This document shows, in pieces, positions 7,192 to 44,013 of a stretch of DNA of 44,013 bases. Position 1 is the first letter of the stretch; each line of letters begins with the position of its first letter. Made by a program: the position numbers and the translations under genes. Under the pieces are notes generated by a model. It was not told where the DNA came from and made no database searches. It worked only from the letters and a program-made list of their open reading frames with translations. Where the stretch lies: NCBI RefSeq assembly GCF_000401215.1, contig NZ_ASRV01000167.1, positions 1 to 44,013 on the forward strand. Reading direction: 5' to 3'. The stretch comes from Clostridium sartagoforme AAU1 (lineage in GTDB: Bacteria; Bacillota; Clostridia; Clostridiales; Clostridiaceae).

Positions 7192-9135
7192 ATGAAAGTT
7201 AACAAAAAAGTTAGTATAGCATCTCTTTTAGTAGCACTAGGTATTGTGTATGGAGATATAGGAACATCACCGCTTTATGTTATGAAATCAATGCTTATGG
7301 TAGACAATGGACATGTATCAAAAGATCTTATTTTAGGAGGGGTGTCTCTTGTTATATGGACATTGACCCTTCAAACAACAATAAAGTATGTAATGATAAC
7401 TTTAGAAGCTGATAATAAAGGTGAAGGAGGAATATTTTCATTATATACCTTGGTAAGAAAAAAGGCTAAATGGCTAATAATACCTGCTGTTGTAGGGGGG
7501 GCAACATTACTTGCAGATGGAATGATTACACCACCTGTAACTGTAACTTCTGCAATAGAAGGACTAAACTTAGTTATACCAATTGAAACAAGAGGTATAA
7601 TTATAATTGTAATAACTATATTAACACTATTATTTTTGCTTCAAAGATTTGGAACAGATGTAATAGGAAAAGTCTTTGGACCTATGATGGTTATATGGTT
7701 TGTAATGTTATTTATTTTAGGTATAGTTCAAGTAGCACAATTCCCTGGTATAATAAAGGCTATAAATCCTTATTATGGTATACACTTATTAATAACAAGT
7801 CCTAGAAGTGTATATATTTTAGGCGCAGTATTTCTTTGTACTACAGGAGCAGAAGCTCTTTATTCAGATCTTGGGCATTGTGGTAAAAGAAATATTCATT
7901 ATACATGGGTATTTGTAAAAATAAGTTTAATATTTAATTACTTAGGTCAAGGTGCATGGCTTATGTTAAGAGAAGGAAATGTGATTAAAGAAAATCCATT
8001 TTTCTTAATTATGCCGGAATGGTTTATAATACCTGGCACTATAATAGCTACAATTGCAGCAATAATAGCTAGTCAAGCCCTTATAACTGGTTCATTTACA
8101 TTAGTTTCTGAAGCTATTAAGTTGAATTTATTTCCAAAGCTTCAAGTTAGATATCCAAATGAAGATAAGGGCAAAGTTTATATACCAGCAGTAAACATGT
8201 TACTTTATATTGGATGTGTACTATTAGTACTAAAATTTCAAAAATCAGAACATATGGAAGCTGCATATGGACTAGCAATTACAATAACAATGCTTATGAC
8301 AACTATATTATTATCTCAATACATAAGGTATATTAAAAAGAAATCATCAATGGCAATAATGATTTTTATTGTTTTTACTATTATAGAGGCTGCTTTCTTG
8401 TATGCTAACTTATTTAAATTTATTAATGGTGGATATGTAACAATTATAATTGCTGGTGCATTGATATTTTTAATGTATATATGGATTTATGGTACAGTTA
8501 TAAGAAAGAGATTTAGTCAGTACGTTGGTATATTATGTTTTAAAAAGCACTTTAGATCATTAAAAGATGATAAGGAACTACCTTTATTTGCAACAAATCT
8601 TGTATATTTAACAGAATCTCAAAATTATGAAGAAATTGAAAGTAAAATAATCTTTTCCATTTTTAATAAGCAACCTAAGCGTGCAAAGTTTTATTGGTTT
8701 GTAAATGTTAAGGTAACAGATGAACCATATACAAAAGAATATAATGTAAAAACAATAGTACCACATGAAGCATTTTATATTCAATTTAACCTTGGATTTC
8801 GTGTAGAACAAAAGATAAATATATTTTTATATCAAGTTATTCAAGACCTTGTACTTAGTGAGGAGATAAAATATACTCCAAAGGAATATATGATAGGTCA
8901 TAGTAATAAACATCTTGTTGGAGATTTTAAATTTGTATTATTACAAGAAATACTTTCAAATGAAAGTGAATTATCTAGATGGGATAATTTTGTTACAAGT
9001 ACTAAATTATTAATAAAGAAATTAACTGTTTCACCAGAGAAATGGTTTGGAATAGATACTAGTATTGTTAGAATAGAGAAAGTTCCTATCATCATAGGTA
9101 ATGGAGAAACCTTAAAATTAACACGAATAGATTAA
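7192..9135 (+). CDS. kup: Kup/HAK-type low-affinity potassium transporter
   Basis: A 647-aa H+/K+ symporter of the cytoplasmic membrane. The N-terminus has the family signature 'ALGIVYGDIGTSPLYVMKS', followed by about 12 membrane helices ('ADGMITPPVTVTSAIEGL', 'TTGAEALYSDLGHCG') and a cytoplasmic C-terminal domain of about 190 residues. Length agrees with the family (E. coli Kup is about 622 aa). The start ATG follows an AGGAAGG ribosome site. It appears to be a single-gene unit between two hairpins. Confidence 0.95.
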   Translation: MKVNKKVSIASLLVALGIVYGDIGTSPLYVMKSMLMVDNGHVSKDLILGGVSLVIWTLTLQTTIKYVMITLEADNKGEGGIFSLYTLVRKKAKWLIIPAVVGGATLLADGMITPPVTVTSAIEGLNLVIPIETRGIIIIVITILTLLFLLQRFGTDVIGKVFGPMMVIWFVMLFILGIVQVAQFPGIIKAINPYYGIHLLITSPRSVYILGAVFLCTTGAEALYSDLGHCGKRNIHYTWVFVKISLIFNYLGQGAWLMLREGNVIKENPFFLIMPEWFIIPGTIIATIAAIIASQALITGSFTLVSEAIKLNLFPKLQVRYPNEDKGKVYIPAVNMLLYIGCVLLVLKFQKSEHMEAAYGLAITITMLMTTILLSQYIRYIKKKSSMAIMIFIVFTIIEAAFLYANLFKFINGGYVTIIIAGALIFLMYIWIYGTVIRKRFSQYVGILCFKKHFRSLKDDKELPLFATNLVYLTESQNYEEIESKIIFSIFNKQPKRAKFYWFVNVKVTDEPYTKEYNVKTIVPHEAFYIQFNLGFRVEQKINIFLYQVIQDLVLSEEIKYTPKEYMIGHSNKHLVGDFKFVLLQEILSNESELSRWDNFVTSTKLLIKKLTVSPEKWFGIDTSIVRIEKVPIIIGNGETLKLTRID

Positions 9136-9288
9136 TAATGAATATTAGTCTTTTAATAAGTTATTTATTAGTATATAACTTATATCATACATAAATAATA
9201 CTTCTATATTTTAGGCAGCTTTTCCTATTGCAAATGGACAAAGAGTTGTTTTAGAAATTGCTTTTTGAATATTTAACAATGGAATTTA

Positions 9289-9324
9289 AAAAGATGACTT
9301 CTGTTAAATACAGAAATCATCTTT
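9289..9324. terminator. Hairpin between kup and the PRD regulator (bidirectional terminator?)
   Basis: AAAGATGACTTCTG (9289-9302) pairs with CAGAAATCATCTTT (9311-9324) with one C-A mismatch. On the minus strand the stem is followed by a short T run, so it best suits the convergent regulator gene; on the plus strand no T run follows directly. A stop-bounded stretch at about 9213-9268 reading 'AAFPIANGQRVVLEIAF' may be a gene remnant. Confidence 0.55.
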
Positions 9325-9402
9325 CCAATGCTGTTTAGGTCTTTTTTTATTGTTTTTGACAAATGATATAGAGTGTATTTTCTTTAACTTTATATTGCTA
9401 TC

Positions 9403-11499
9403 TTATAACTTTTTTTCTTTTTTTACTTCATTATCTTCATAATATCTAAATATATCAACAATCTCTCTTTTGCTTTTAGCAGCCATAATCTTATCCACTG
9501 CTATAGGGTTACAAAGAGTATTCATTGTAGTGAAAAGCATATTAAGATTTTTCTTAGTATCTATAATAGAAAGCATAATTATTATCTTTATCGGATCATT
9601 AGTTTTGTGACCAAACTCCACAGGACTTTTTAACCTTACAAAGGAGGCCCCTAGCTTTTTCGCTCCATCTTTAGGAGCTGCATGGGCAATAGCAATTCCT
9701 GGTGCAAATACAAAATAAGGTCCGTTGTCTATTACATTATTAACTACAGCTCTAATATAATCTGGTGTTATTATATCTTTCCATAGAAGCGGTTCTCCAG
9801 ATAAAATAATTGATTCCTTCCAATTTTCTACCTCTTTATCTAAAATAATTAATTCCTCTGTTAAAAGAGAAGAAAACCTATTTTCACCTTGAACTTTATT
9901 TATCATTTCCTTCACTTCATTTCTATTGTTGGAAAAGTTATTTATCATGGATTCTTTAGTTTCTTCTCTCTTTTCAACGACTTTATTCAATCTTATTTTA
10001 TTGAGAAAATTAGATATTATTATATTAATATGTGCTATATCCTTATCAGATAAAATAGGGTTTACTTGAATCCAAGGGCTAGATATACTAACTAAAGGAA
10101 TAGTACTAATAATTAAATCACAATTTATCTTATCCTTGTCCACATATTCCTTCAGCTTATGTGAAGATATTATCTCCAGTATATTTAATTTAAAGTGCTT
10201 TGATAATCTTTCAGCTAAAAAGTGTGAAGTTCCAAAGCCTACATGGCAAACAATAATTACATTAGGAATAATAAGATTTTGTCTCATCTTTTCTAGGGAA
10301 GCTTCTATATGCATTAATATGTAAGAACTTTCATCTTCATTAATTCTTACATTAAGATTTTCCTCCAAAAAGCTAATATTATCCCTAATTATTTTAAAAT
10401 CTTCAGGATAGGTGGCAATAAGCTGTCCCTTATATGGATTTATTAAAGTGTCTCCTTCTTTTATTCTGTGGCAAACTCTAGCTACATGAGCTGTTAAAAA
10501 TTCCTGTAACTTATATTCTTCTTGAAGGCTTATATTGAAATCTTGAGATAAGTTATACAAAAATCCCTTAACTATTATATAGTAATTCATCATATCTTGA
10601 TTAACAGGGGTGGTATTTTTATAAGTTATTTTATATCTTAATTTATCAGCTAAGTATAGAATATCTCCTCTAGAGAATTCTCTATCACCCATAATTAACT
10701 TTAATACATAGCCGGATATTTCATAGAAGATATCATTGGAGTTATTATTTATTACATAGGATTCTTCTATATTTCTATTTTTATCTAATCTATAGCATAC
10801 AATACAAAGAAGTATTAATATTTCATTAAAATCTATATCTGTCATGACTACCTGGAAGTGCGGTTCAAGAATGCAAAGAGCATTTTCAACCATAGATTTG
10901 TAAAAATCAAAGTTAATCTGATTCTTTATATAAGAAAGACATATATCTACTGAAGTATTATCTAAGGAGTTTATATTAGAAAGCTCCTTTTCTTTTAAGA
11001 AGCTATATATCACGTTTCTTCTGATACTTTCATCTATATCTAAAATATAACCATGTCTTTTATTTTCGGAGAAAAATATACCATGTTTACTTAATATATC
11101 ACCAGCGGAAGAAATATCCTTCTTTATTGTACTTCTACTAGCAAATAGAGTATCTTCAAGGTCTGCAATGGTTATTGGGGTGTCTGACAATAAAAGCATT
11201 ATAGATATTATTATTTGCCTTTCTTCGGAAGAAAGTCTATAATCATAAAAGTCATTTTTCGTTGCAATATTTAATATTTCTTTTATTTCAGTATCAGTGC
11301 CTATAAAGGATACATTACTTCCATCTCTTAACAGTGCACCTTTGAAACTATTATCTATTAAAAGTTCTTCTATTATAGATATATAGTTCCTAATTGTACG
11401 AACATTAACATTGAAGTAATTTCCAAGCTCTGATAAATGAAACTCTTTATTCCTATTATTTATTAAAAAAACTAATAACTCGTAAACCTTATTATTCAT
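9403..11499 (-). CDS. PRD-containing transcriptional activator with PTS EIIB and EIIA domains (MtlR/LicR type)
   Basis: A 698-aa DNA-binding regulator controlled by PTS phosphorylation. Order: HTH_11 (about 1-60, 'NVNVRTIRNYISIIEELL'), a second HTH of Mga type (about 90-150), PRD1 (about 185-290, H214), PRD2 (about 305-405, H338, H344, H397), a galactitol-type EIIB domain with active Cys418 in 'IIVCHVGFGTSHF', and a fructose/mannitol-type EIIA domain with His606 in 'GIAIAHAAPKDG'. GAGGGGG lies seven bases before the ATG. It is divergent from the galactitol-type PTS operon at 11816 and is its obvious regulator. Phosphorylation of the PRDs by HPr and of the EIIB/EIIA-like domains by the cognate PTS would couple induction to substrate uptake and carbon status. 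Confidence 0.9.
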   Translation of the reverse strand: MNNKVYELLVFLINNRNKEFHLSELGNYFNVNVRTIRNYISIIEELLIDNSFKGALLRDGSNVSFIGTDTEIKEILNIATKNDFYDYRLSSEERQIIISIMLLLSDTPITIADLEDTLFASRSTIKKDISSAGDILSKHGIFFSENKRHGYILDIDESIRRNVIYSFLKEKELSNINSLDNTSVDICLSYIKNQINFDFYKSMVENALCILEPHFQVVMTDIDFNEILILLCIVCYRLDKNRNIEESYVINNNSNDIFYEISGYVLKLIMGDREFSRGDILYLADKLRYKITYKNTTPVNQDMMNYYIIVKGFLYNLSQDFNISLQEEYKLQEFLTAHVARVCHRIKEGDTLINPYKGQLIATYPEDFKIIRDNISFLEENLNVRINEDESSYILMHIEASLEKMRQNLIIPNVIIVCHVGFGTSHFLAERLSKHFKLNILEIISSHKLKEYVDKDKINCDLIISTIPLVSISSPWIQVNPILSDKDIAHINIIISNFLNKIRLNKVVEKREETKESMINNFSNNRNEVKEMINKVQGENRFSSLLTEELIILDKEVENWKESIILSGEPLLWKDIITPDYIRAVVNNVIDNGPYFVFAPGIAIAHAAPKDGAKKLGASFVRLKSPVEFGHKTNDPIKIIIMLSIIDTKKNLNMLFTTMNTLCNPIAVDKIMAAKSKREIVDIFRYYEDNEVKKEKKL

Positions 11500-33643: not shown

Positions 33644-34702
33644 ATGGGGTTATTTGATAGGTTAAGGGAACCTGTGTTTTTAAAGGAAAGTAGTAAAGCT
33701 ATAGAGCAAATAGAAAAGTTAAAGGAATTAGAACCAAAATTAAATTCTGAAGGAAAAGAAAAAATTAAAAAAGAAATAAAATGCATTGAGTATGGAATCA
33801 TAGGTGAAAAAAATATTGAGTTTGAACTAAGAAATAGTCATATGCCAATGTATATAATACATGATTTATATATAGAAAGTGATGACTTGAGTTCTCAAAT
33901 AGATTATCTAGTTATTACAAAAAAGATTTGTTTTGTAATTGAGTGTAAAAATTTATTTGGAAATATAGAAATAAATAATCAAGGTGACTTTATTAGAAAT
34001 ATGGATTTCGGTAGTAAGAAAATTAAAGAAGGAATATACTCACCAATAACTCAGAATGAGAGACACTTAAAGTTAATGAAAAAAATAGCTATAGAAAATA
34101 AGTCAAATGTAATAATGAAATTTATTACAGATAAGCTATTTGAAAGTTCATATAAGACAGTAGTAGTTTTAGCTAATCCTAAAACTTTACTTAATTCAAG
34201 ATTTGCAAAGAAAGAAATTAAGGATAAGGTTATTAGGGCAGATCAATTAGTTAGCTATATAAAAGATAATTACAATAAATCTAAAGAACTAGAAATGTCA
34301 GAGAAAGCATTATTTTCTTGGGCAGAATCCTTTCTTAAAATTCATAAAGAAAAAGATATATCTTACTTAGAAAAATATAATAAATATTTAGTTGAAGATG
34401 GCAAAACAGATTATATAAAAAGCAATATAAATATAGTTAAAGAAACTTATAATAAATACATAAGTAATAAAGTAAATATAGAAGATACAGAAATTTATAA
34501 GGAATTAAAATCTTTTCGGTTAAATAAAAGTAGGCAAGAAAATATAAAACCATATTTTATATACAATAATGAACAATTAAATGATTTAATTTCTAAAATG
34601 CCATTAAGTAATGAAGAATTAAAAAAGGTATCTGGATTTGGAGACGTGAAGATAAGTAAGTATGGGGAAGATATTATTAATATAATTAAAAAGTACCTAT
34701 AA
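33644..34702 (+). CDS. NERD-domain nuclease-like protein with C-terminal HRDC domain
   Basis: A 352-aa protein. A coiled, charged N-terminus (about 15-48) precedes a nuclease-related domain (about 50-160) with the PD-(D/E)xK-type pattern E55 ('GIIGEKNIEFEL'), D87 ('SSQIDYLV') and E100-x-K102 ('FVIECKN'). The last ~65 residues ('LNDLISKMPLSNEELKKV' followed by 'GFGDVKISKYGEDI') look like an HRDC nucleic-acid-binding domain. It is therefore a plausible DNA- or RNA-processing enzyme. NERD proteins are often found with mobile or defence genes, and this one begins such an island. The ATG follows GAGGAGAGG. Its biological role is unknown. Confidence 0.82.
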   Translation: MGLFDRLREPVFLKESSKAIEQIEKLKELEPKLNSEGKEKIKKEIKCIEYGIIGEKNIEFELRNSHMPMYIIHDLYIESDDLSSQIDYLVITKKICFVIECKNLFGNIEINNQGDFIRNMDFGSKKIKEGIYSPITQNERHLKLMKKIAIENKSNVIMKFITDKLFESSYKTVVVLANPKTLLNSRFAKKEIKDKVIRADQLVSYIKDNYNKSKELEMSEKALFSWAESFLKIHKEKDISYLEKYNKYLVEDGKTDYIKSNINIVKETYNKYISNKVNIEDTEIYKELKSFRLNKSRQENIKPYFIYNNEQLNDLISKMPLSNEELKKVSGFGDVKISKYGEDIINIIKKYL

Positions 34703-34871: not shown

Positions 34872-36293
34872 ATGAAATATAACTATGATAGAAATGATAA
34901 AGAATCAATAGAGGAATATGCAAGAAGGTTACTTAACAAAAGTTTGAGTAATATAAATACGAGTAGCAAAGAAAGTAAATTTAACAATGAAAAATCTAAG
35001 GGGAGATTAGGACAAGTTGTAGAAGAGGAGTATTTTGGATATAAAGTTAATAGCAGACAGGAAGCTGATTTCAAAGAAGTTGGAGTAGAATTAAAAGTAT
35101 GTCCGTTAAAGAATATTACTAAGAAATCGAAATCAAATAGTATGAGAGAACAACTTGGATATTCAGCAAAAGAAAGAATAGTCCTTAGCATTATAGATTA
35201 TTTTAAACTAAATGAAGAGTCTTGGGAAAATAACTCTATAATGCAAAAATGTAAAGAGCTTCTTTTAATGTTCTACATGAATGAGAAAGATATTCCAAAA
35301 GAAGAATTAATATTTAAAATTATAAGCTTATGGAGTCCATCTGAAAAAGATATAAAGATTATAGAGAAAGATTGGAATATAATATCGAATAAGGTTAAAG
35401 AGGGAAGAGCCCATGAGATTTCTGAAGGAGATACAATGTATCTAGGAGCGTGCACTAAAGGCAGCACAGCAGAAAAAAGTAAAAGAGCTCAGCCTAATTC
35501 AGAAATTATGGCCCAACAAAGGGCATTTTCTTATAAAAGACAATATGTTGATTATATAATAGATGAGTTACTTGAAAAAGAGCAGTATAAAAAAGTAAAA
35601 GCATCAAAGTCGTTATCAGATGATAATATTCTATTTGACGAAAAGATTTATAATATATTTAATGGAATTTTGAATAAAAGCGTATCTGAAATAATGAGTA
35701 TTTACTCAATAAATAGAGAAAGAAAGGCTAAAAATTTTATTAGATTAGTGGTAGATGATGTATGTAAAGCGGTATTTGGAGACAAGCTTGAAAATTTTGA
35801 GGAATTTAAAAAGGCTTCAATTGAGCTTAAAACAATAGTACTTAAACCTAATGGAATGCCAAAGGAATCTATGTCCTTTGAACAAATTGATTATTGCGAA
35901 ATAGTAAATGAAGAATGGGAAACATCAACTATAAAAGATAAATTCGAAAATAAAAAACATTTGTGGGTAATTTTTAAGAGTAAAATTAATTTTGAAAAAC
36001 AATCAGAATTAAGTTTGGATGATATTATTTTGGATAAAGTAATGTTTTGGAACATGCCTATATCTGATTTAGAAGGAAGTATGTATAGGGTATGGCTTGA
36101 TACGGTTGATAAAATTAAGAAGGTTAAATACGAATCTTTCATAAAAATAAGTGATAATGAAATAGCACATATAAGGCCGAAGGCTCGAAATAAGGAAGAT
36201 TTGATTATTACCCCTCAAGGAAGTTATGAGAGAAGAAAATGTTTTTGGTTAAATGCTAAATATATTAAAGATCAGATAAATAAATTTTATTAA
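34872..36293 (+). CDS. Sau3AI-like type II restriction endonuclease (GATC)
   Basis: A 473-aa endonuclease of the MutH/Sau3AI family (Sau3AI itself is about 489 aa). The N-terminal MutH-type catalytic domain has E52 ('GQVVEEEYFGY'), D66 and E73-x-K75 ('ADFKEVGVELKVCP'); the spacing of 14, 7 and 2 residues equals that of MutH E56, D70, E77 and K79. The C-terminal half (about 230-473) corresponds to Sau3AI's second, non-cutting MutH-like domain, which gives cooperative binding of a second site. The expected cut is before GATC, blocked by cytosine methylation from the methyltransferase encoded at 36581. TGGAGGATG precedes the start. Confidence 0.9.
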   Translation: MKYNYDRNDKESIEEYARRLLNKSLSNINTSSKESKFNNEKSKGRLGQVVEEEYFGYKVNSRQEADFKEVGVELKVCPLKNITKKSKSNSMREQLGYSAKERIVLSIIDYFKLNEESWENNSIMQKCKELLLMFYMNEKDIPKEELIFKIISLWSPSEKDIKIIEKDWNIISNKVKEGRAHEISEGDTMYLGACTKGSTAEKSKRAQPNSEIMAQQRAFSYKRQYVDYIIDELLEKEQYKKVKASKSLSDDNILFDEKIYNIFNGILNKSVSEIMSIYSINRERKAKNFIRLVVDDVCKAVFGDKLENFEEFKKASIELKTIVLKPNGMPKESMSFEQIDYCEIVNEEWETSTIKDKFENKKHLWVIFKSKINFEKQSELSLDDIILDKVMFWNMPISDLEGSMYRVWLDTVDKIKKVKYESFIKISDNEIAHIRPKARNKEDLIITPQGSYERRKCFWLNAKYIKDQINKFY

Positions 36294-36580: not shown

Positions 36581-37816
36581 ATGGAACATACAATTTGTGA
36601 ATTATTTGCTGGGGTAGGTGGATTCAGAGTAGGGCTTGAAAAAAGTTCACTAGATTGGAAAACAGTGTGGGCAAACCAATGGGAACCTAGTAAAAAAGTT
36701 CAGCACGCTTTTGAATGTTATAAGAGTCATTTTGAAACCTCTGGTGGGATAGATAAATATAGTAATATAGATATAGCTCAAGTTCCTGTAGAACATATTC
36801 CAAATCATACATTGTTAGTTGGTGGATTTCCATGCCAAGATTATTCGGTTGCTAGTACTGGTGCTCGTGGGATACAAGGAAAAAAAGGAGTACTTTGGTG
36901 GGAGATTGAAAGAATTTTGGAGGCAAAGAGACCACCATTTGTGATTTTAGAAAATGTTGATAGATTATTAAAATCGCCATCTAGTCAACGTGGGAGAGAT
37001 TTTGGAATTATAATAAGTTGTTTTGCTAAATTAGGATATTCAGTTGAATGGAGAGTAATAAATGCAGCTGAATATGGGTTCCAACAAAGAAGAAGACGTA
37101 TATTTATTTTTGCAGTACATAATACAACTAAGTACTTCAAAGAGTTGCAGAATCAAAGCCCATATGAAGAACTTCAATCTTATGGATTCTTTAGTTCTAC
37201 ATTTAACGTAGAAAAATTTCCTGAAGATGCTATTAGTAGTATAGATATAAAAGAAAAGTATAGTTTAGATATACTCGAAATTTCTAATAATTTTGCATTT
37301 GGATTTAAGAATTCTGGTATATATAGAAATGGAGTAATATATACAGTAGAAACCACTCCAAACAATTTATTGGTAAATAAGCCAATAACGTTAGAAGATA
37401 TTCTAGAGAAAACTGTGGATGAAAAATATATATTATCTGAAGATGATTTGGAAAAATGGACTTATATGAAAGGACCAAAGGCTATTGAGAGAACTTCTAA
37501 AGATGGTCATAAATATGTATTTAGAGAAGGTGGAATAGCTTTTCCGGATCCTATAGATAAACCTGCACGTACGATGTTGACAAGTGAAGGTAGTAAAAAT
37601 AGAAGTACCCATGTTGTTAGAGACATTGAAACTGGAAAACTAAGGCTATTAACTCCTATTGAATGTGAGAGAATAAACGGATTTCCAGATAATTGGACTA
37701 ATACAGGAATGACTAATTCATTTAGATATTTCTGTATGGGGAATGCGCTAGTTGTAAATTTAGTAGAACACATGGGAAAGAAATTACATAGTATCATAGA
37801 AAAGGAAGATAAATAA
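36581..37816 (+). CDS. DNA (cytosine-5) methyltransferase, M.Sau3AI-like
   Basis: A 411-aa enzyme (M.Sau3AI is about 412 aa) that should methylate the cytosine of GATC and protect host DNA from the upstream endonuclease. Conserved motifs are in order: I 'ELFAGVGGFRVGLE' (7-20), IV 'VGGFPCQDYSV' with catalytic C85, VI 'VILENVDRLL' (121-130), VIII 'FQQRRRRIFIFAV' (167-179), and IX/X 'CMGNALVVNLVEHMG' near the C-terminus. The target-recognition region (about 200-310) defines specificity and cannot be decoded here, so GATC is inferred from the Sau3AI-like partner. TAGGAGG precedes the ATG. Confidence 0.93.
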   Translation: MEHTICELFAGVGGFRVGLEKSSLDWKTVWANQWEPSKKVQHAFECYKSHFETSGGIDKYSNIDIAQVPVEHIPNHTLLVGGFPCQDYSVASTGARGIQGKKGVLWWEIERILEAKRPPFVILENVDRLLKSPSSQRGRDFGIIISCFAKLGYSVEWRVINAAEYGFQQRRRRIFIFAVHNTTKYFKELQNQSPYEELQSYGFFSSTFNVEKFPEDAISSIDIKEKYSLDILEISNNFAFGFKNSGIYRNGVIYTVETTPNNLLVNKPITLEDILEKTVDEKYILSEDDLEKWTYMKGPKAIERTSKDGHKYVFREGGIAFPDPIDKPARTMLTSEGSKNRSTHVVRDIETGKLRLLTPIECERINGFPDNWTNTGMTNSFRYFCMGNALVVNLVEHMGKKLHSIIEKEDK

Positions 37817-38410: not shown

Positions 38411-38440
38411 TTGATATTGTCTATGTAAATATTTTATAAT
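38411..38440 (+). promoter_or_regulatory. Promoter of the three-gene cassette
   Basis: TTGATA (38411-38416), an 18-bp spacer, and a perfect TATAAT (38435-38440), 56 bp before the start of the first cassette gene. This is the clearest sigma-A promoter in the island. Confidence 0.6.
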
Positions 38441-38495: not shown

Positions 38496-41255
38496 ATGTG
38501 TTTAGTACTTAAAGAAAATATTGAAATAGAAAAAATAAAATTATCAGTAAGGGCTTACAATTGTTTAAAAAACTCAAATATAAATAAATTAAATGAATTA
38601 ATGATTTTAAATGATGATGATTTAACCAAAATAAGAAATTTAGGTAACAAATCCTTGGAAGAAATAAAAAATTTAAAAAGAAGTGTAGAGGATGGAATAA
38701 TACCTTTGAAGGACATTATAAATGATAATTCAAATAATTTGGATTTTAATGAGATAAAGTTAATAGATGCAATAAGTGATGAAAGAAAAGAAAGAGAAAA
38801 TATATTTTTTTATAATTCATATTGGGGGTATGTAGAGGATTTAACAATTAAAGATTTAAATCTTTCAGTTAGGTCTAAAAATGCATTAAGAAACTCAGGG
38901 TTCAATTATATTTCAGAATTATTAGAACTTACATATTTAGAATTTAATGCAATAAAGAATTTAGGTAAGAAAAGTAGAAATGAGATTTTGAAATTAATTA
39001 ACGAATGCATTTATATTACATATAAAGAAAGAGATAAATCAAGAAACTCTGCTATAAATTTAGAAAAATATTTAGACTGGCTTATTGATGATTTTTGTGA
39101 TAGTAAAATTAACTTTAATCTAACAAACTTTAGAGCTAACATCATTCCAAATTTAAAAAGAGTTGCTAATGAAAATTCTTTAGAAGGAAATGATGTGGAA
39201 AATTTCTTAATTGAAGATAATATTAATATTATTTATAAAAGTCAATTTTTTATATCATTCTTTAAAGGGGAAATAACTAGAAATATTAATAATATTGGTG
39301 GTAAATCTACCATTGAAGATATTGTAAGCTTTTTTCCTAATCATATTAAAAAAACTAATTATATATTAAATTTGATTAACGATATGATTAAAGAAAATAT
39401 TATTGAAAAATTTGAAGGAAAATATAGTGTTTATTATCCAGCTTTATCTGAAATTATTGATAATATTTCAGATAAGAGAGATAAGTTTATCATAGAAAAT
39501 AGACTTTTAGGAAAAACCTTGGAACAAGTTGGAAGCATGCTGAATATTACGAGAGAAGGAGTACGACAAAAAGAAATAAAAATTATGAGGAAAATACCAA
39601 GAGTTAAAGAAGATAGATTTATAAATATTTTTCAAAGTTATAATTGGACCACAGAAACATTTTTGCATGCATTTGAAGTTAGTATTAAAGTTTATAATTA
39701 TCTAAATTATAAATATAAAAAAGGAACAGTAGAATTAAATAAAGCATTAGAAGATAATACTATTCCAGTTAAGGTTAGACAAAGGCTTGAAGGCCTTATT
39801 TATAAGGATTACTTGCTAATAGGTAATGTAAGAATAAAAAAAGAAAAACAACATATTTTAGATTATGTTTTAAAATCATTCTGTAAAGATGATATTTCAG
39901 TTGAGGATTTAAATGATATCTATATAATGTTTTTAGAAGATTTTAATTTAGATGCAGAGGAATTTAAGTATCCTGTTAGATATTTTGAATCTACTTTAGC
40001 TAATAGTAATAGAGTATTATGGAAATTTAAAAAACGACTTAGATATTTTGATTTTAGTGACTTTGATGAACAAAAAATAATTTCCTCATTAAGTCTAGAA
40101 AATTATAAAAATGTAGAGATATCAACTTTAAAGATTTTTAATGATTATAATGAAGTAATGAAAGAATGGGGAATTAGAGATGAATATGAACTCCATAATT
40201 TAATGAAAAAAGTTATTGGAGATAAAAATAATTTAGGTATTAAGTTTTTGCGTATGCCAAATATTGAATTTGGTAATGCAGATAGAGATATGCAAGTTTT
40301 AGAATTATTAATTCAGTCTTCACCAATCCCAAATTATGAATTAGCCAAACTTTACGAAATGGAGTATGGAGTAAAAGTAGAAACGGCTTTAGCCAATTAT
40401 TTCAAGGCTATAGAAGAGTATTATAATGAAGGTATATATTCAATAGATTATAAATGTTTAAATCAATATGAATTAGGAGAAATGAAGAAAATATTAAATG
40501 ATGATATTTATTTATTAAGTGAGTTAAAAGGTATATATGAAAAGAATTTTCCACAAGGTGATATTACAACAATAAATCCTTACAGTTTAAGATGTCTTGG
40601 CTTTAAGGTTACATCACTCTTTATTTATTCGGATAAGTTTAATTCGTTAGAAGATTGTATAAAAAATAAAATTTTAAATAATGAAATTTTTGACGCAACT
40701 AATTTAATGAAGCGATTTGGAAACTACCAATCCTTTTATAATGTTATCAGATCTAAGAAATTTGAATATGAAATTATAGAATTTGAACCGAATATATTTA
40801 TTACTATAGAGCGATTAGAGAGAAATAGAATAACTAAAAATGATTTGCTTGATTTTGTAAAATCTGTAGATGAGTTTATTGATGAAGAGATTTTTACAAT
40901 AAAATACTTGAGAAAAAGGGGATTTAAACACTATTTAGACGATTTAGGTTTTGACGAATGGTTTTATAGCTCTATATTAAAATGCAATGAAAAATATAAA
41001 TCAAGAAGAGTTGAAGGTAATGTTATATTAAAAAAATCTAATGATGCAGTAACATTAAATGATTTAGTTGAACATATAGTAACAAAATTTAGAAAGATAG
41101 ATATGTATGATTTAATAGATTATGTGTATGAAGAGTATGGTATTAGGATTAATAGAGGGAAAATTTCCTATATAGCTAGTGAAAAAGAGTTGTACTACGA
41201 TGCTATAATGGAAAAAATATATATTGACTATGATGAGTATTTTGAGGAGGTATAA
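38496..41255 (+). CDS. Large protein with two RpoA-CTD-like domains and a sigma-70 region 4-like HTH (cassette gene A)
   Basis: A 919-aa soluble protein of unknown function. Two repeats, about 12-62 ('IKLSVRAYNCLKNSNINKLN' then 'IRNLGNKSLEEIKN') and 117-169 ('LNLSVRSKNALRNSGFNYIS' then 'IKNLGKKSRNEILK'), follow the C-terminal domain of the RNA polymerase alpha subunit, a helix-hairpin-helix fold that binds AT-rich DNA. Residues about 325-368 ('LLGKTLEQVGSMLNITREGV') match the sigma-70 region 4 HTH. The remaining ~550 residues are not recognisable; their acidic/aromatic helical texture suggests several small winged-helix or helical modules. No catalytic motif is visible. The start follows GGAGGGG. 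It leads a cassette with a ParB-like protein and a PLD-helicase, so DNA or promoter recognition for that machine is the best guess. Confidence 0.8.
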   Translation: MCLVLKENIEIEKIKLSVRAYNCLKNSNINKLNELMILNDDDLTKIRNLGNKSLEEIKNLKRSVEDGIIPLKDIINDNSNNLDFNEIKLIDAISDERKERENIFFYNSYWGYVEDLTIKDLNLSVRSKNALRNSGFNYISELLELTYLEFNAIKNLGKKSRNEILKLINECIYITYKERDKSRNSAINLEKYLDWLIDDFCDSKINFNLTNFRANIIPNLKRVANENSLEGNDVENFLIEDNINIIYKSQFFISFFKGEITRNINNIGGKSTIEDIVSFFPNHIKKTNYILNLINDMIKENIIEKFEGKYSVYYPALSEIIDNISDKRDKFIIENRLLGKTLEQVGSMLNITREGVRQKEIKIMRKIPRVKEDRFINIFQSYNWTTETFLHAFEVSIKVYNYLNYKYKKGTVELNKALEDNTIPVKVRQRLEGLIYKDYLLIGNVRIKKEKQHILDYVLKSFCKDDISVEDLNDIYIMFLEDFNLDAEEFKYPVRYFESTLANSNRVLWKFKKRLRYFDFSDFDEQKIISSLSLENYKNVEISTLKIFNDYNEVMKEWGIRDEYELHNLMKKVIGDKNNLGIKFLRMPNIEFGNADRDMQVLELLIQSSPIPNYELAKLYEMEYGVKVETALANYFKAIEEYYNEGIYSIDYKCLNQYELGEMKKILNDDIYLLSELKGIYEKNFPQGDITTINPYSLRCLGFKVTSLFIYSDKFNSLEDCIKNKILNNEIFDATNLMKRFGNYQSFYNVIRSKKFEYEIIEFEPNIFITIERLERNRITKNDLLDFVKSVDEFIDEEIFTIKYLRKRGFKHYLDDLGFDEWFYSSILKCNEKYKSRRVEGNVILKKSNDAVTLNDLVEHIVTKFRKIDMYDLIDYVYEEYGIRINRGKISYIASEKELYYDAIMEKIYIDYDEYFEEV

Positions 41256-41256
41256 C

Positions 41257-42471
41257 ATGAATTTATTAAAAGATGGTATTGAAAATGGAGGAGTATTAAA
41301 AACAAATTTATCAAGAAAGATAACTATTGATGGGCATACAGAGGCTTATCCAGTATATAAGGTGAAATTAGATTATTTGTTTTATAACGATCAGAATGAT
41401 AGAATTGCAACTTGGATAAGTCAATACAAAGCTGATAATAATATTAATAAAATCGATATGAGTGATATTTCAACATACAATGATATAATTCAAGAGTTTA
41501 TAGTTAAGAGTAATCCTGAAGCAATAAAGATAACACAAGCTAATATTGAATTAGTAGATCAACGTGAACCAGGTGTTGTATTAGCTGATGGAAGAATTAT
41601 TGATGGTAATAGGAGATTTACATGTTTACGTAATTTATCTAAGAATAGTCCACGTTTTAATTACTTTGAAACAGTAATTTTAGAAAAAAATTTAGAGAAT
41701 AATTCAAAACAAATTAAAATGCTTGAACTTATGATTCAGCATGGGGAAGAAAGTAAGGTTGATTATAACCCAATTGATAGATTAGTTGGTATTTATAATG
41801 ATGTTATTGAAAGTAAACTTCTTACAGTAAAAGAATATGCGATGAGTACAAATATGACTGAATCAGAAGTAAATAAGGAAATCGAAGTAGCAAAATTATT
41901 AGTAGAATTTTTAGAAACAATTAATGCACCTAAACAATTTTATATTGCTAGAGACATGGGGATAGATGGGCCATTACGTGAATTATATGGAGTACTGCGT
42001 AAGATTAATAATGATGATGAAGCAGAGAATATTAAAAATTCAGTTTTTACAAATTTTCTAGTGCAACCACATGGTGATATGACAAGATTTATAAGAAAGA
42101 TTAAAACTGTAGTATCATCAAAGTATTTAACTGAATTTCTCGATGAACAAATGGATATTGCTGAAAAGGTACTGGACAAGTTACCTGAAGTTGGACAAGT
42201 TACTAAAGCTGTAATAAAAGAAGTATTTAGAACTGATGAAGATACTAAGGAAGAATTAAAAAAGTCTTTAGAGAAAGCTGAATTAAAAGCAAAATCAAGT
42301 GAAACTAGAAACAGGCCTACTCAAATTCTGGAGAAAATTGAAAATTACTTAGAAACTATTGATATAAATATTTTTTCTAAATTAAATGAAGAACAAATAT
42401 CCTCAATATTATCTCAAGTTGATAAAATTGAAGAATCTTTAAAAATTATTAAGGATGCTACAAATGTTTAA
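41257..42471 (+). CDS. ParB/sulfiredoxin-domain protein (cassette gene B)
   Basis: A 404-aa cytoplasmic protein. Its N-terminal half carries the ParB/Srx-fold core 'PGVVLADGRIIDGNRRFTCL' (about 100-125), where DGNRR corresponds to the nucleotide-binding G-x-RR box of ParB. The middle ('KLLTVKEYAMSTNMTESEVN', about 185-210) looks like the HTH that follows in ParB relatives, and the C-terminus is a long charged helix. There is no ParA gene alongside, so plasmid partition is unlikely. The ATG at 41257 lies directly after gene A's stop (GAGGAGGT at 41244); an ATG at 41224 within gene A has no such site. The 3' end overlaps gene C by eight bases. Confidence 0.82.
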   Translation: MNLLKDGIENGGVLKTNLSRKITIDGHTEAYPVYKVKLDYLFYNDQNDRIATWISQYKADNNINKIDMSDISTYNDIIQEFIVKSNPEAIKITQANIELVDQREPGVVLADGRIIDGNRRFTCLRNLSKNSPRFNYFETVILEKNLENNSKQIKMLELMIQHGEESKVDYNPIDRLVGIYNDVIESKLLTVKEYAMSTNMTESEVNKEIEVAKLLVEFLETINAPKQFYIARDMGIDGPLRELYGVLRKINNDDEAENIKNSVFTNFLVQPHGDMTRFIRKIKTVVSSKYLTEFLDEQMDIAEKVLDKLPEVGQVTKAVIKEVFRTDEDTKEELKKSLEKAELKAKSSETRNRPTQILEKIENYLETIDINIFSKLNEEQISSILSQVDKIEESLKIIKDATNV

Positions 42472-44013
42472 AACAATTAATATAAAGCCTATTTATTCCT
42501 CTTACGATGATAATATAGCTGAGGAGTTTTATATTCCAGTTCTAAAAAATGCAGTAAGATTCGATAGAATAAGTGCATATTTTTCAGCTAAGTCCTTAGC
42601 TTATTATGCAAAGGGATTAGAAAATTTTGTTCGTAATGGTTATAAGTATAGATTAATAGTCTCAGAAGAAATAAGTGAAGCAGATTACTTACTAATAAAA
42701 GAAGGTTATGAGCTAAAGTCTAGTATTAGAGAGAGATTAATATCCAATTTTCATTCTAAGTTAACTTTAGATGAAGAAAAGAATATATCAAATCTAGCTT
42801 ATCTTATATCAATAGGTATAGTCGATATTAAAATTGCATTTGTTAGAAATGGTATTTTTCATGATAAATGTGGATTGATTTATGACGCATATGAAAATAT
42901 TATCTGTTTTAGAGGTTCTAATAATGAAACTGAAGCAGCAATTAATAGTAATTATGAGGGATTTACAGTAACGTGTAGTTGGTTGTTAGATTCAAAAGGC
43001 TTCTATGAGAAAATACTCACTAAAAGCAAAAATGAGTTTGAAATATTATGGAATAATAAACATAAAGATATTGTTGTATTAAAGGCAGGTGATGTAATTA
43101 TGAATGAAATTTTGAAGTTTAATAAAAATGAAATTATAACAGAAAAAGCTTTGTTAGAAGATAACTGTGTTATTTTAGATTATAAGGGTATCCTTTCTTT
43201 AAGAATTTATATGGCTGATACTAATTGGATTCTAAATAGTGCATTTTATAAGATAAAATTAAAAAGATATGTTGATAAAATAGATGATAATATCATTTAT
43301 TTTAAAGAATCCCTTAGTTATCTTGATTTTGAAAAGATTAGAGACTTAATTAAGAATAAGGCAAACTCATTAGGAAAAAGATTTGTATGTACTAACAGAT
43401 TATTAGATTATATCGAAGCAAGAAATATTTATATTGATAAAAGGGCTAAATTAGGAATTCAAATTAAACAGCAAGATGAATCCTTAAGGGATAGATTTGA
43501 AGAATATTCACGAATAGTTAATGACCATATATCTAGAAAATTAAGAGAAAAGCAAATGTGGGATTCTTTTTTTATGTTTGCTATGACTAAGTCAGGAAAT
43601 TTCTCAGTTCCTGGTTCAGGAAAAACTTCATCTGTACTAGGCGTTTACGCATACCTAAAGGCTAAAAATTTAGTTAAAAGAATTGTAATGATTGGACCTA
43701 AAAATGCTTTTGGTTCTTGGATGGATGAATTTAATATTTGTTTTAAAGGAAAAGAGAAGTTAAAAGTATTTAATAGCCACGATTCCAAATACAAGAGTAC
43801 GAAAGAAAAGAAGCAGGCCTTGCAATTTGATACTGGAAATTGTAATTTATTTTTATTTAATTATGAATCGCTTAGCACGTTAAAAGAGGATATAAAAAAT
43901 ATAGTTGATGAAAATACTTTGCTTGTTTATGATGAAGTCCATAAAGTTAAAAGGGTTGAGGGGGATATTCCAGGAACTTACGCTGGAAATGCATTAGAAA
44001 TAGCGGAAAAATC
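42464..44013 (+). CDS. PLD-nuclease and SF2 helicase fusion, 3' end outside the window (cassette gene C)
   Basis: Open from the ATG at 42464 to the right edge (516 codons seen, none of them stop). The N-terminal domain is phospholipase D-like: H133-D-K-135 in 'GIFHDKCGLIYD' followed by 'CFRGSNNETEAA', the single-HKD layout of PLD nucleases joined to restriction helicases. The helicase begins around residue 375 with Walker A 'VPGSGKTSS' (P383-G-S-G-K387-T), motif Ia region 'VMIGPKNAFGSWMDEF' and motif II 'VYDEVHK' (D490-E-V-H493). Motifs III-VI should lie beyond the edge. It overlaps gene B, with AAGGA eight bases before the ATG, implying translational coupling. The likely role is ATP-driven DNA translocation and cleavage. 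Confidence 0.88.
   Translation, partial: MFKTINIKPIYSSYDDNIAEEFYIPVLKNAVRFDRISAYFSAKSLAYYAKGLENFVRNGYKYRLIVSEEISEADYLLIKEGYELKSSIRERLISNFHSKLTLDEEKNISNLAYLISIGIVDIKIAFVRNGIFHDKCGLIYDAYENIICFRGSNNETEAAINSNYEGFTVTCSWLLDSKGFYEKILTKSKNEFEILWNNKHKDIVVLKAGDVIMNEILKFNKNEIITEKALLEDNCVILDYKGILSLRIYMADTNWILNSAFYKIKLKRYVDKIDDNIIYFKESLSYLDFEKIRDLIKNKANSLGKRFVCTNRLLDYIEARNIYIDKRAKLGIQIKQQDESLRDRFEEYSRIVNDHISRKLREKQMWDSFFMFAMTKSGNFSVPGSGKTSSVLGVYAYLKAKNLVKRIVMIGPKNAFGSWMDEFNICFKGKEKLKVFNSHDSKYKSTKEKKQALQFDTGNCNLFLFNYESLSTLKEDIKNIVDENTLLVYDEVHKVKRVEGDIPGTYAGNALEIAEK

Follow-up and report, generated by a model that had tools for sequence, protein, structure and literature searches.

PbeABCD, the partner of DndCDEA, contains a PLD nuclease fused to an SF2 helicase; it halted virus replication without detected DNA cleavage in one study (PMC6459918; here and below, papers are cited from excerpts), and the case for cleavage is argued in another (PMC10853773). 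In CglI and NgoAVII, a C5 DNA methyltransferase, a PLD nuclease and an SF2 ATPase act jointly at a recognised site (PMC4267653). The GATC-specific enzyme Sau3AI has a MutH-like C-terminal half that has lost its catalytic residues and forms an effector-binding domain (PMC548270). Sigma-like helix-turn-helix (HTH) motifs occur in the defence proteins MzaA (by its NCBIfam name) and BrxL, and PglW carries the C-terminal domain of the RNA polymerase alpha subunit (alpha-CTD) followed by winged HTH modules (PMC12839542). Here we present a three-gene operon, A-B-C, at the end of contig NZ_ASRV01000167.1 of Clostridium sartagoforme AAU1 (44,013 bp; the window). We give a probability of about 0.5 to the reading of A-B-C as a restriction-like module, with A as a specificity subunit that finds targets via promoter-like DNA, B as a candidate ParB-type clamp and C as the motor. 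The operon, the families of its genes, the predicted fold of B, the modularity of A and the conservation of its DNA-contact residues were computed here. No named system matching A-B-C was found in PADLOC or NCBIfam, and a full-text search of the open-licence PMC literature gave no paper joining these families, in keeping with an original prediction on this DNA, whose author knew of none. Read as an ATP-dependent restriction-like system, A-B-C would have a specificity subunit that is unprecedented as far as these searches go.

Modules and DNA contacts of protein A

The original prediction had described A as built from alpha-CTD and sigma region 4 modules, and profile searches agree. Pfam matches RNA_pol_A_CTD in two stretches (E value 5.6e-33) and Sigma70_r4 (3.4e-5, slightly below Pfam's own cut-off), and the rpoA and RpoD profiles match as well (Table 1). 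The sigma region 4 chains among the PDB matches of A are called RpoD, SigA or simply sigma factor (60 of 134 matches listed). The MzaA profile matches over the sigma region 4 part only (2.4e-4; 20 bits, cut-off 800), so that A is not a full MzaA, and that of BREX type 2 PglW matches over the alpha-CTD only (5.6e-6; 22 bits, cut-off 990). The Pfam search of A found neither the kinase nor the NERD domain that PglW has, and no MutH domain; the head of A differs from Sau3AI in consisting of alpha-CTD and sigma region 4 modules.

The residues by which these modules touch DNA were compared with contact lists from PMC4943231, PMC8407463, PMC5101437 and PMC7822876, the numbering being based on E. coli segments. 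R584, E585 and Q589 of sigma70 read the -35 element (PMC8407463), and F563 is listed as a core-binding residue (PMC4943231); R265, N294 and K298 of the alpha-CTD touch UP-element DNA (PMC5101437, PMC7822876). Residues 341-365 of A, the HTH, align without gaps to residues 572-596 of E. coli sigma70. Across 19 A proteins, 190 of 228 cells carry the E. coli residue at the -35 contact positions listed in PMC4943231, and 79 of 247 do so at the remaining positions (four more of the listed contacts, R554, R562, D570 and Y571, fall beyond this stretch and do not enter the count). This alignment leaves aside the partial A proteins (loci L007 and L013), those of L005, L047 and genomes G026 and G003, second A copies and the A-like proteins of Exiguobacterium. 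R584 and Q589 are kept in 19/19 proteins, and E585, R586 and R588 in 18/19, whereas the position aligned with F563 is never F (0/19). In the alpha-CTDs of the 16 non-Enterococcus A proteins (the three from Enterococcus are excluded), R265 is kept in 31/32 copies, N294 in 30/32 and K298 in 26/32, whereas E261 and V287, which we take to be protein-contact positions, are kept in 3/32 and 1/32. Since these DNA contacts are kept and F563, E261 and V287 are not, we read the head as DNA-reading rather than polymerase-binding. Of the earlier proposal that the module senses promoter or transcription states, the link of the modules to promoters stands; we prefer promoter-DNA reading because the residue pattern fits it better, and for transcription-state sensing nothing beyond the modules speaks.

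The C-terminal domain of A links it to a second group of proteins. In a tblastn search with neighbour genes, a Priestia protein annotated as MutH/Sau3AI matched the last ~270 residues of A. It matches 19/19 aligned A proteins (2e-23 to 3e-9) as well as every locus in which A is whole, and a profile of this coupling domain matches both the Priestia protein (1.1e-41) and a 491-amino-acid Exiguobacterium protein (1.3e-44). The Priestia protein adjoins a B-C pair and a C5 methyltransferase. Similarity to the C-terminal half of the window's Sau3AI is seen in the first halves of the two proteins (6e-26 and 2e-16, respectively) and in a stand-alone 247-amino-acid L. plantarum protein beside B-C (4e-25); the N-terminal half of Sau3AI is matched less well by the sequences from all three hosts. 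The Priestia and Exiguobacterium heads are relatives of the non-catalytic MutH-like domain of Sau3AI (PMC548270), and heads of this type may read GATC. Because the coupling domain is found with either a Sau3AI-type or an alpha-CTD/sigma region 4 head, A is modular, and it looks like a specificity subunit whose head is carried by a shared coupling domain.

Variant forms of A were also seen. Second A copies in L003 (6799-8781) and L005 (6790-8781) are 660 and 663 amino acids long, with the sigma region 4 HTH deleted in both and no alpha-CTD match in that of L003. The Exiguobacterium acetylicum plasmid p1-UTDF19-27C (L055, L056) carries four A-like proteins (797, 852, 851 and 1218 amino acids), as if it held several specificity subunits. 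Three of them lie near Vsr and a C5 methyltransferase, and the recognition helix is canonical in one and diverged in the other three; B-C was not located on this plasmid.

Proteins B and C and their relatives

Gene B gave no convincing match in Pfam (ParB included), PADLOC or NCBIfam, nor did B profiles in searches of PDB sequences (Spo0J, E value 0.49 over its HTH). The ParB/Srx assignment made originally is nevertheless upheld at the level of structure. The predicted model (predicted local distance difference test score, 89) has a ParB/Srx fold with an HTH and matches the folds of ParB, KorB and Noc, which places B, on its predicted fold, in the ParB superfamily. GNRR, at the position of ParB box II, is invariant in 16 diverse B proteins aligned. 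Compared with the CTPases ParB, KorB and Noc, B is alike in fold, including the HTH, but has a different helical tail, and no ParA adjoins A-B-C in the records read. In L048, a 705-amino-acid protein (8346-10463, minus strand) has HEPN_Swt1 N-terminal to a B-type ParB protein and adjoins C5-methyltransferase-like genes; no C was matched in this 19-kb stretch.

Protein C is the helicase-PLD fusion that had been predicted (Pfam PLDc_2 and ResIII), and its PLD half falls in the PbeA family (7e-64), an identity new to that account. In the nearest relative, L002, the full-length protein has 865 amino acids and is 86% identical to the window's C over the shared part. The window's C has the motifs HxK (residue 133), GSNNE (151), GSGKT (384) and DEVH (490). 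Where C bears a PLD, HxK stands at about residue 133 and GSxNE at about 151, and GSGKT and DEVH occur in every A-B-C type C read far enough; the C of L007 is split at residue 201. Mapped onto a tree of B proteins, presence of the PLD requires four changes (bootstrap 3-6).

Despite this kinship, excerpts of PMC6459918 and PMC10853773 describe no counterpart of A or B in Pbe. As the window ends inside C, the neighbours of Pbe were sought in L002, where PbeB, the CxC ABC-ATPase PbeC and the DndE-like PbeD are absent after C; no open reading frame (ORF) of at least 60 amino acids lies wholly between C and a DUF3427 PLD-helicase 843 bp on. The genome of the window (G000, 97.7% complete) contains no dndC; 320 of 553 PbeAC are likewise without dndCD within 10 kb (PMC6459918). 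That A-B-C is simply PbeABCD was rejected for the lack of PbeB-D in L002 and of dndC in G000. The stretch L002:7530-10869 holds this second PLD-helicase, distinct from C, and after it a NUDIX-like gene, the two being perhaps another defence pair.

B-C pairs also occur in methyltransferase loci. The Priestia locus holds a C5 methyltransferase, a Sau3AI-C-type reader, ParB and a PLD-motor, and B-C, a C5 methyltransferase and a Sau3AI-C-like protein are carried by Priestia, L. plantarum and Exiguobacterium plasmids. A mod-res-B-C arrangement is found in Lactococcus and Lacticaseibacillus paracasei; the record of L. paracasei N1115 plasmid unnamed_4 (L037, 8,755 bp) lists only type III mod, res, B and the helicase C, and an E. 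faecalis record (L035) has mod, res and B annotated, with no gene listed at the place of C. Other B-C loci hold methyltransferase, endonuclease-like and NOV_C proteins. The MutH-headed relatives resemble the plan of CglI and NgoAVII, and the methyltransferase-bearing relatives look as if they follow an ATP-dependent restriction-modification (R-M) logic. The PbeA kinship, the optional PLD, the coupling domain with a Sau3AI-type head and the B-C pairs in methyltransferase loci go beyond the original prediction.

Locus, neighbours and distribution

The tight coupling of the three genes noted originally was found again: A and B are 1 bp apart, and B and C overlap by 8 bp (17 bp if C starts at an alternative in-frame ATG at 42455). 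Across 23 loci, A-B gaps measure 1-54 bp, and B and C overlap by up to 23 bp or are up to 42 bp apart; because such short junctions recur, the order A-B-C is not due to chance. The window is an entire contig (C167 of G000) and ends with the C ORF still open, so C is interrupted at residue 516. The operon had been credited with a promoter of its own, and a site close to consensus does precede A, although the stretch is no richer in such sites than shuffled sequences (9 versus 7.7).

Table 1 Coordinates in the window of A-B-C, its parts and neighbouring genes
Feature	Position	Strand	Basis or remark
Sau3AI-family type II endonuclease (neighbour)	34872..36293	+	NF040973, 465 bits (cut-off 300)
C5 DNA methyltransferase (neighbour)	36581..37816	+	dcm, 242 bits (cut-off 100.65)
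Promoter-like site TTGATA-18-TATAAT upstream of A	38411..38440	+	11/12 matches
Gene A	38496..41255	+	919 amino acids; proposed specificity subunit
A, alpha-CTD copy 1	38514..38672	+	rpoA profile, 2.6e-15
A, alpha-CTD copy 2	38823..39005	+	rpoA profile, 7.0e-13
A, sigma region 4	39423..39623	+	RpoD profile, 1.3e-6
A, conserved middle region (residues 380-639, with DEYELHNL)	39633..40412	+	alignment and profile
A, C-terminal coupling domain, common to MutH-headed proteins of B-C loci	40413..41252	+	profile and sequence matches
Gene B	41257..42471	+	404 amino acids, start ATG 41257; ParB-type: ParB/Srx domain, HTH, helical tail
B, DGNRR motif at the position of ParB box II	41602..41616	+	alignment
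Gene C	42464..44013	+	start ATG 42464; PLD nuclease and SNF2/SF2 helicase; ORF interrupted by contig end

The adjoining R-M system, also named originally, is a genuine one of the Sau3AI type. Directly upstream of its genes, 33644-34702 encodes a NERD nuclease-like domain fused to HRDC, the HRDC part resembling the end of DpdF (9.6e-14). Elsewhere in this genome, rpoA (L043, L044; G000:C21, 5012-5886) seems split over two frames, probably through an assembly or sequencing error.

Twenty loci were recovered with C as the query; their hosts are Clostridia, Paenibacillaceae, Treponema and one Gastranaerophilales (Melainabacteria) bin that may be misbinned. Every one of them has B next to C, with B partial in L012, and 18 have A, whole or its end, next to B; the exceptions are L012, which the contig start interrupts, and L008, with 636 bp only upstream of B. 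The neighbourhood thus recurs in many genomes, and the three genes do co-occur outside the window's genome. Gene clustering of L002-L021 found only the A, B and C families in most loci, and an obligatory fourth gene was rejected, as the genes beside C vary (VWA, DUF2971, SIR2-like, PIN, response regulator). Contigs of chromosomal size carry A-B-C in Cohnella (4.8 Mb) and Paenibacillus (2.9 Mb). Among 72,556 plasmid records, B is present in 66 (52 of them Enterococcus) and the C-terminal domain of A in 50 (46 Enterococcus); A-B-C was seen in the three Enterococcus records read, those with the closer B. Seven of 398 genomes of the phylum hold B. A is present as well in G000, G003 and G339; in G235, G280 and G189 (the last a weak match only) B lies in a methyltransferase locus, and in G142 it is part of a HEPN fusion. 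The coupling domain is in four (G000, G003, G339, G026); 16/16 further A-B-C genomes hold it a single time, or two times if a second A is present (L003, L005), and have no other copy. B is present in 4 of 50,697 phage records (the one read, L031, is a methyltransferase locus), and a scan of viral contigs gave one distant B (L064). In the tree of 34 B proteins, Treponema lies among Clostridia, and the B proteins of Cohnella, Desulfosporosinus and Lacrimispora are nearly identical, which points to transfer between families. A single branch, modestly supported (69/97), sets the A-type rows apart, and the tree program warns of long branches.

Proposed mechanism and alternatives

We propose that A would mimic, in one chain, the upstream face of the RNA polymerase holoenzyme, with two alpha-CTDs and one sigma region 4, and would bind promoter-like DNA, contacting the minor groove of an AT-rich UP element and, via the sigma HTH, a -35 element. 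Its C-terminal domain would couple DNA binding to B and C and recruit or load B. B, with its predicted ParB CTPase fold, would be loaded at the site and mark the DNA, on which C, an SNF2-type motor, would then move, cutting where a PLD is present, as in the window; a C without PLD would clear or silence the marked DNA instead. The residue pattern supports the binding step and domain sharing the coupling; from there we infer the DNA target, the loading order and the effect on invaders. The host might be spared because its promoters are occupied, because a neighbour modifies its DNA or because free ends are required, all of which are guesses. On a slightly more tentative footing, A-B-C may exemplify a class of restriction-like systems that choose targets by promoters, with exchangeable specificity subunits on a ParB-clamp/SNF2-motor machine, the Sau3AI-type MutH heads and the multiple sigma-like heads of a single plasmid being instances of such exchange. 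As for the defence role put forward originally, we still infer it from company and kinship, and hold it to be probable.

Several observations weigh against this reading. R596 of sigma70 is kept in only 6/19 A proteins, R586 is replaced by G in the A of the window, and K291 of the alpha-CTD, a backbone contact (PMC7822876), is kept in just 5/32 copies. The Enterococcus A proteins of L030 and L038 are without alpha-CTDs and those of L029 are degenerate; the A of L047, outside the 19, has LTRQRASQI in place of the usual helix, and its first 230 residues fail to align with the window's A. In the Desulfosporosinus genome G003, to which L008 belongs, a 915-amino-acid A ends ~900 bp from the end of a different contig, at least 1.5 kb from B. 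G026 has a lone A of 862 amino acids (L061:9207-11795), with alpha-CTD-like and sigma region 4 parts retained and the coupling domain shortened; no B was found in that genome. C has ~620 amino acids and no PLD in 12/20 loci, and likewise in three Enterococcus plasmids. With the PLD absent so often, the cutting proposed originally is not universal among C proteins, and it may not be the core action of the module. A reader of the -35 element would bind host promoters too, and the whole interpretation is computational, from sequences and one predicted structure.

A-B-C could instead be an arm of a Sau3AI-type GATC R-M system, shielded by its C5 methylation, which we consider unlikely. In two loci, those of the window and L047, a Sau3AI endonuclease and a C5 methyltransferase stand no more than 2.3 kb from A-B-C, and the two methyltransferases are 60% identical. 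Among the 398 phylum genomes, Sau3AI is found in 5, A-B-C in 3 and both in 2 (hypergeometric p 0.0004; 0.02 without the window's genome), and the company of B-C on the Priestia, L. plantarum and Exiguobacterium plasmids fits as well. However, when 19 genomes with A-B-C were examined along with G026 and its lone A, a Sau3AI gene was present in just 2 of the 20; the link therefore holds for this branch at most, and Sau3AI R-M was not adopted as a fixed partner. Slightly less probable still is a guard with built-in decoys, in which phage attackers of sigma region 4 or the alpha-CTD strike A and thereby release B and C. Both module types are phage targets, T4 AsiA acting on sigma region 4 and T4 ADP-ribosylation on R265 of alpha, and both are joined here to an effector pair. 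Yet the residues kept in A are mostly DNA contacts and not the core-binding F563 or the presumed protein contacts E261 and V287, and elsewhere the same coupling domain bears a Sau3AI-type head, which is not a polymerase decoy.

Sigma- and alpha-like modules, a ParB fold and a frequent plasmid location would equally suit a transcription factor A, the operon regulating a plasmid or genomic island rather than serving defence. We regard this as quite improbable, given that C is a PbeA-family PLD-helicase or an SNF2-type motor and that B-C relatives stand in type III and C5 R-M loci, including the 8.7-kb plasmid annotated with mod, res, B and C only. A function in plasmid partition or stability, to which the ParB fold and the copies of B on Enterococcus plasmids might point, seems far-fetched: A-B-C also lies in the long chromosomal contigs of Cohnella and Paenibacillus, and no ParA is annotated adjoining it in the three Enterococcus records read.

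If A-B-C is a restriction-like module, a specificity subunit made of the promoter-reading parts of RNA polymerase would choose DNA in a new way; what the ATP-dependent restriction systems known so far recognise is a short sequence or a modification. ParB-type proteins would gain a possible role in defence, as clamps loaded at the target site. The common coupling domain makes the idea directly testable through head exchange. With A-B-C present in gut and soil bacteria, and its coupling domain on 46 Enterococcus plasmid records, the module may affect the traffic of phages and plasmids among them.

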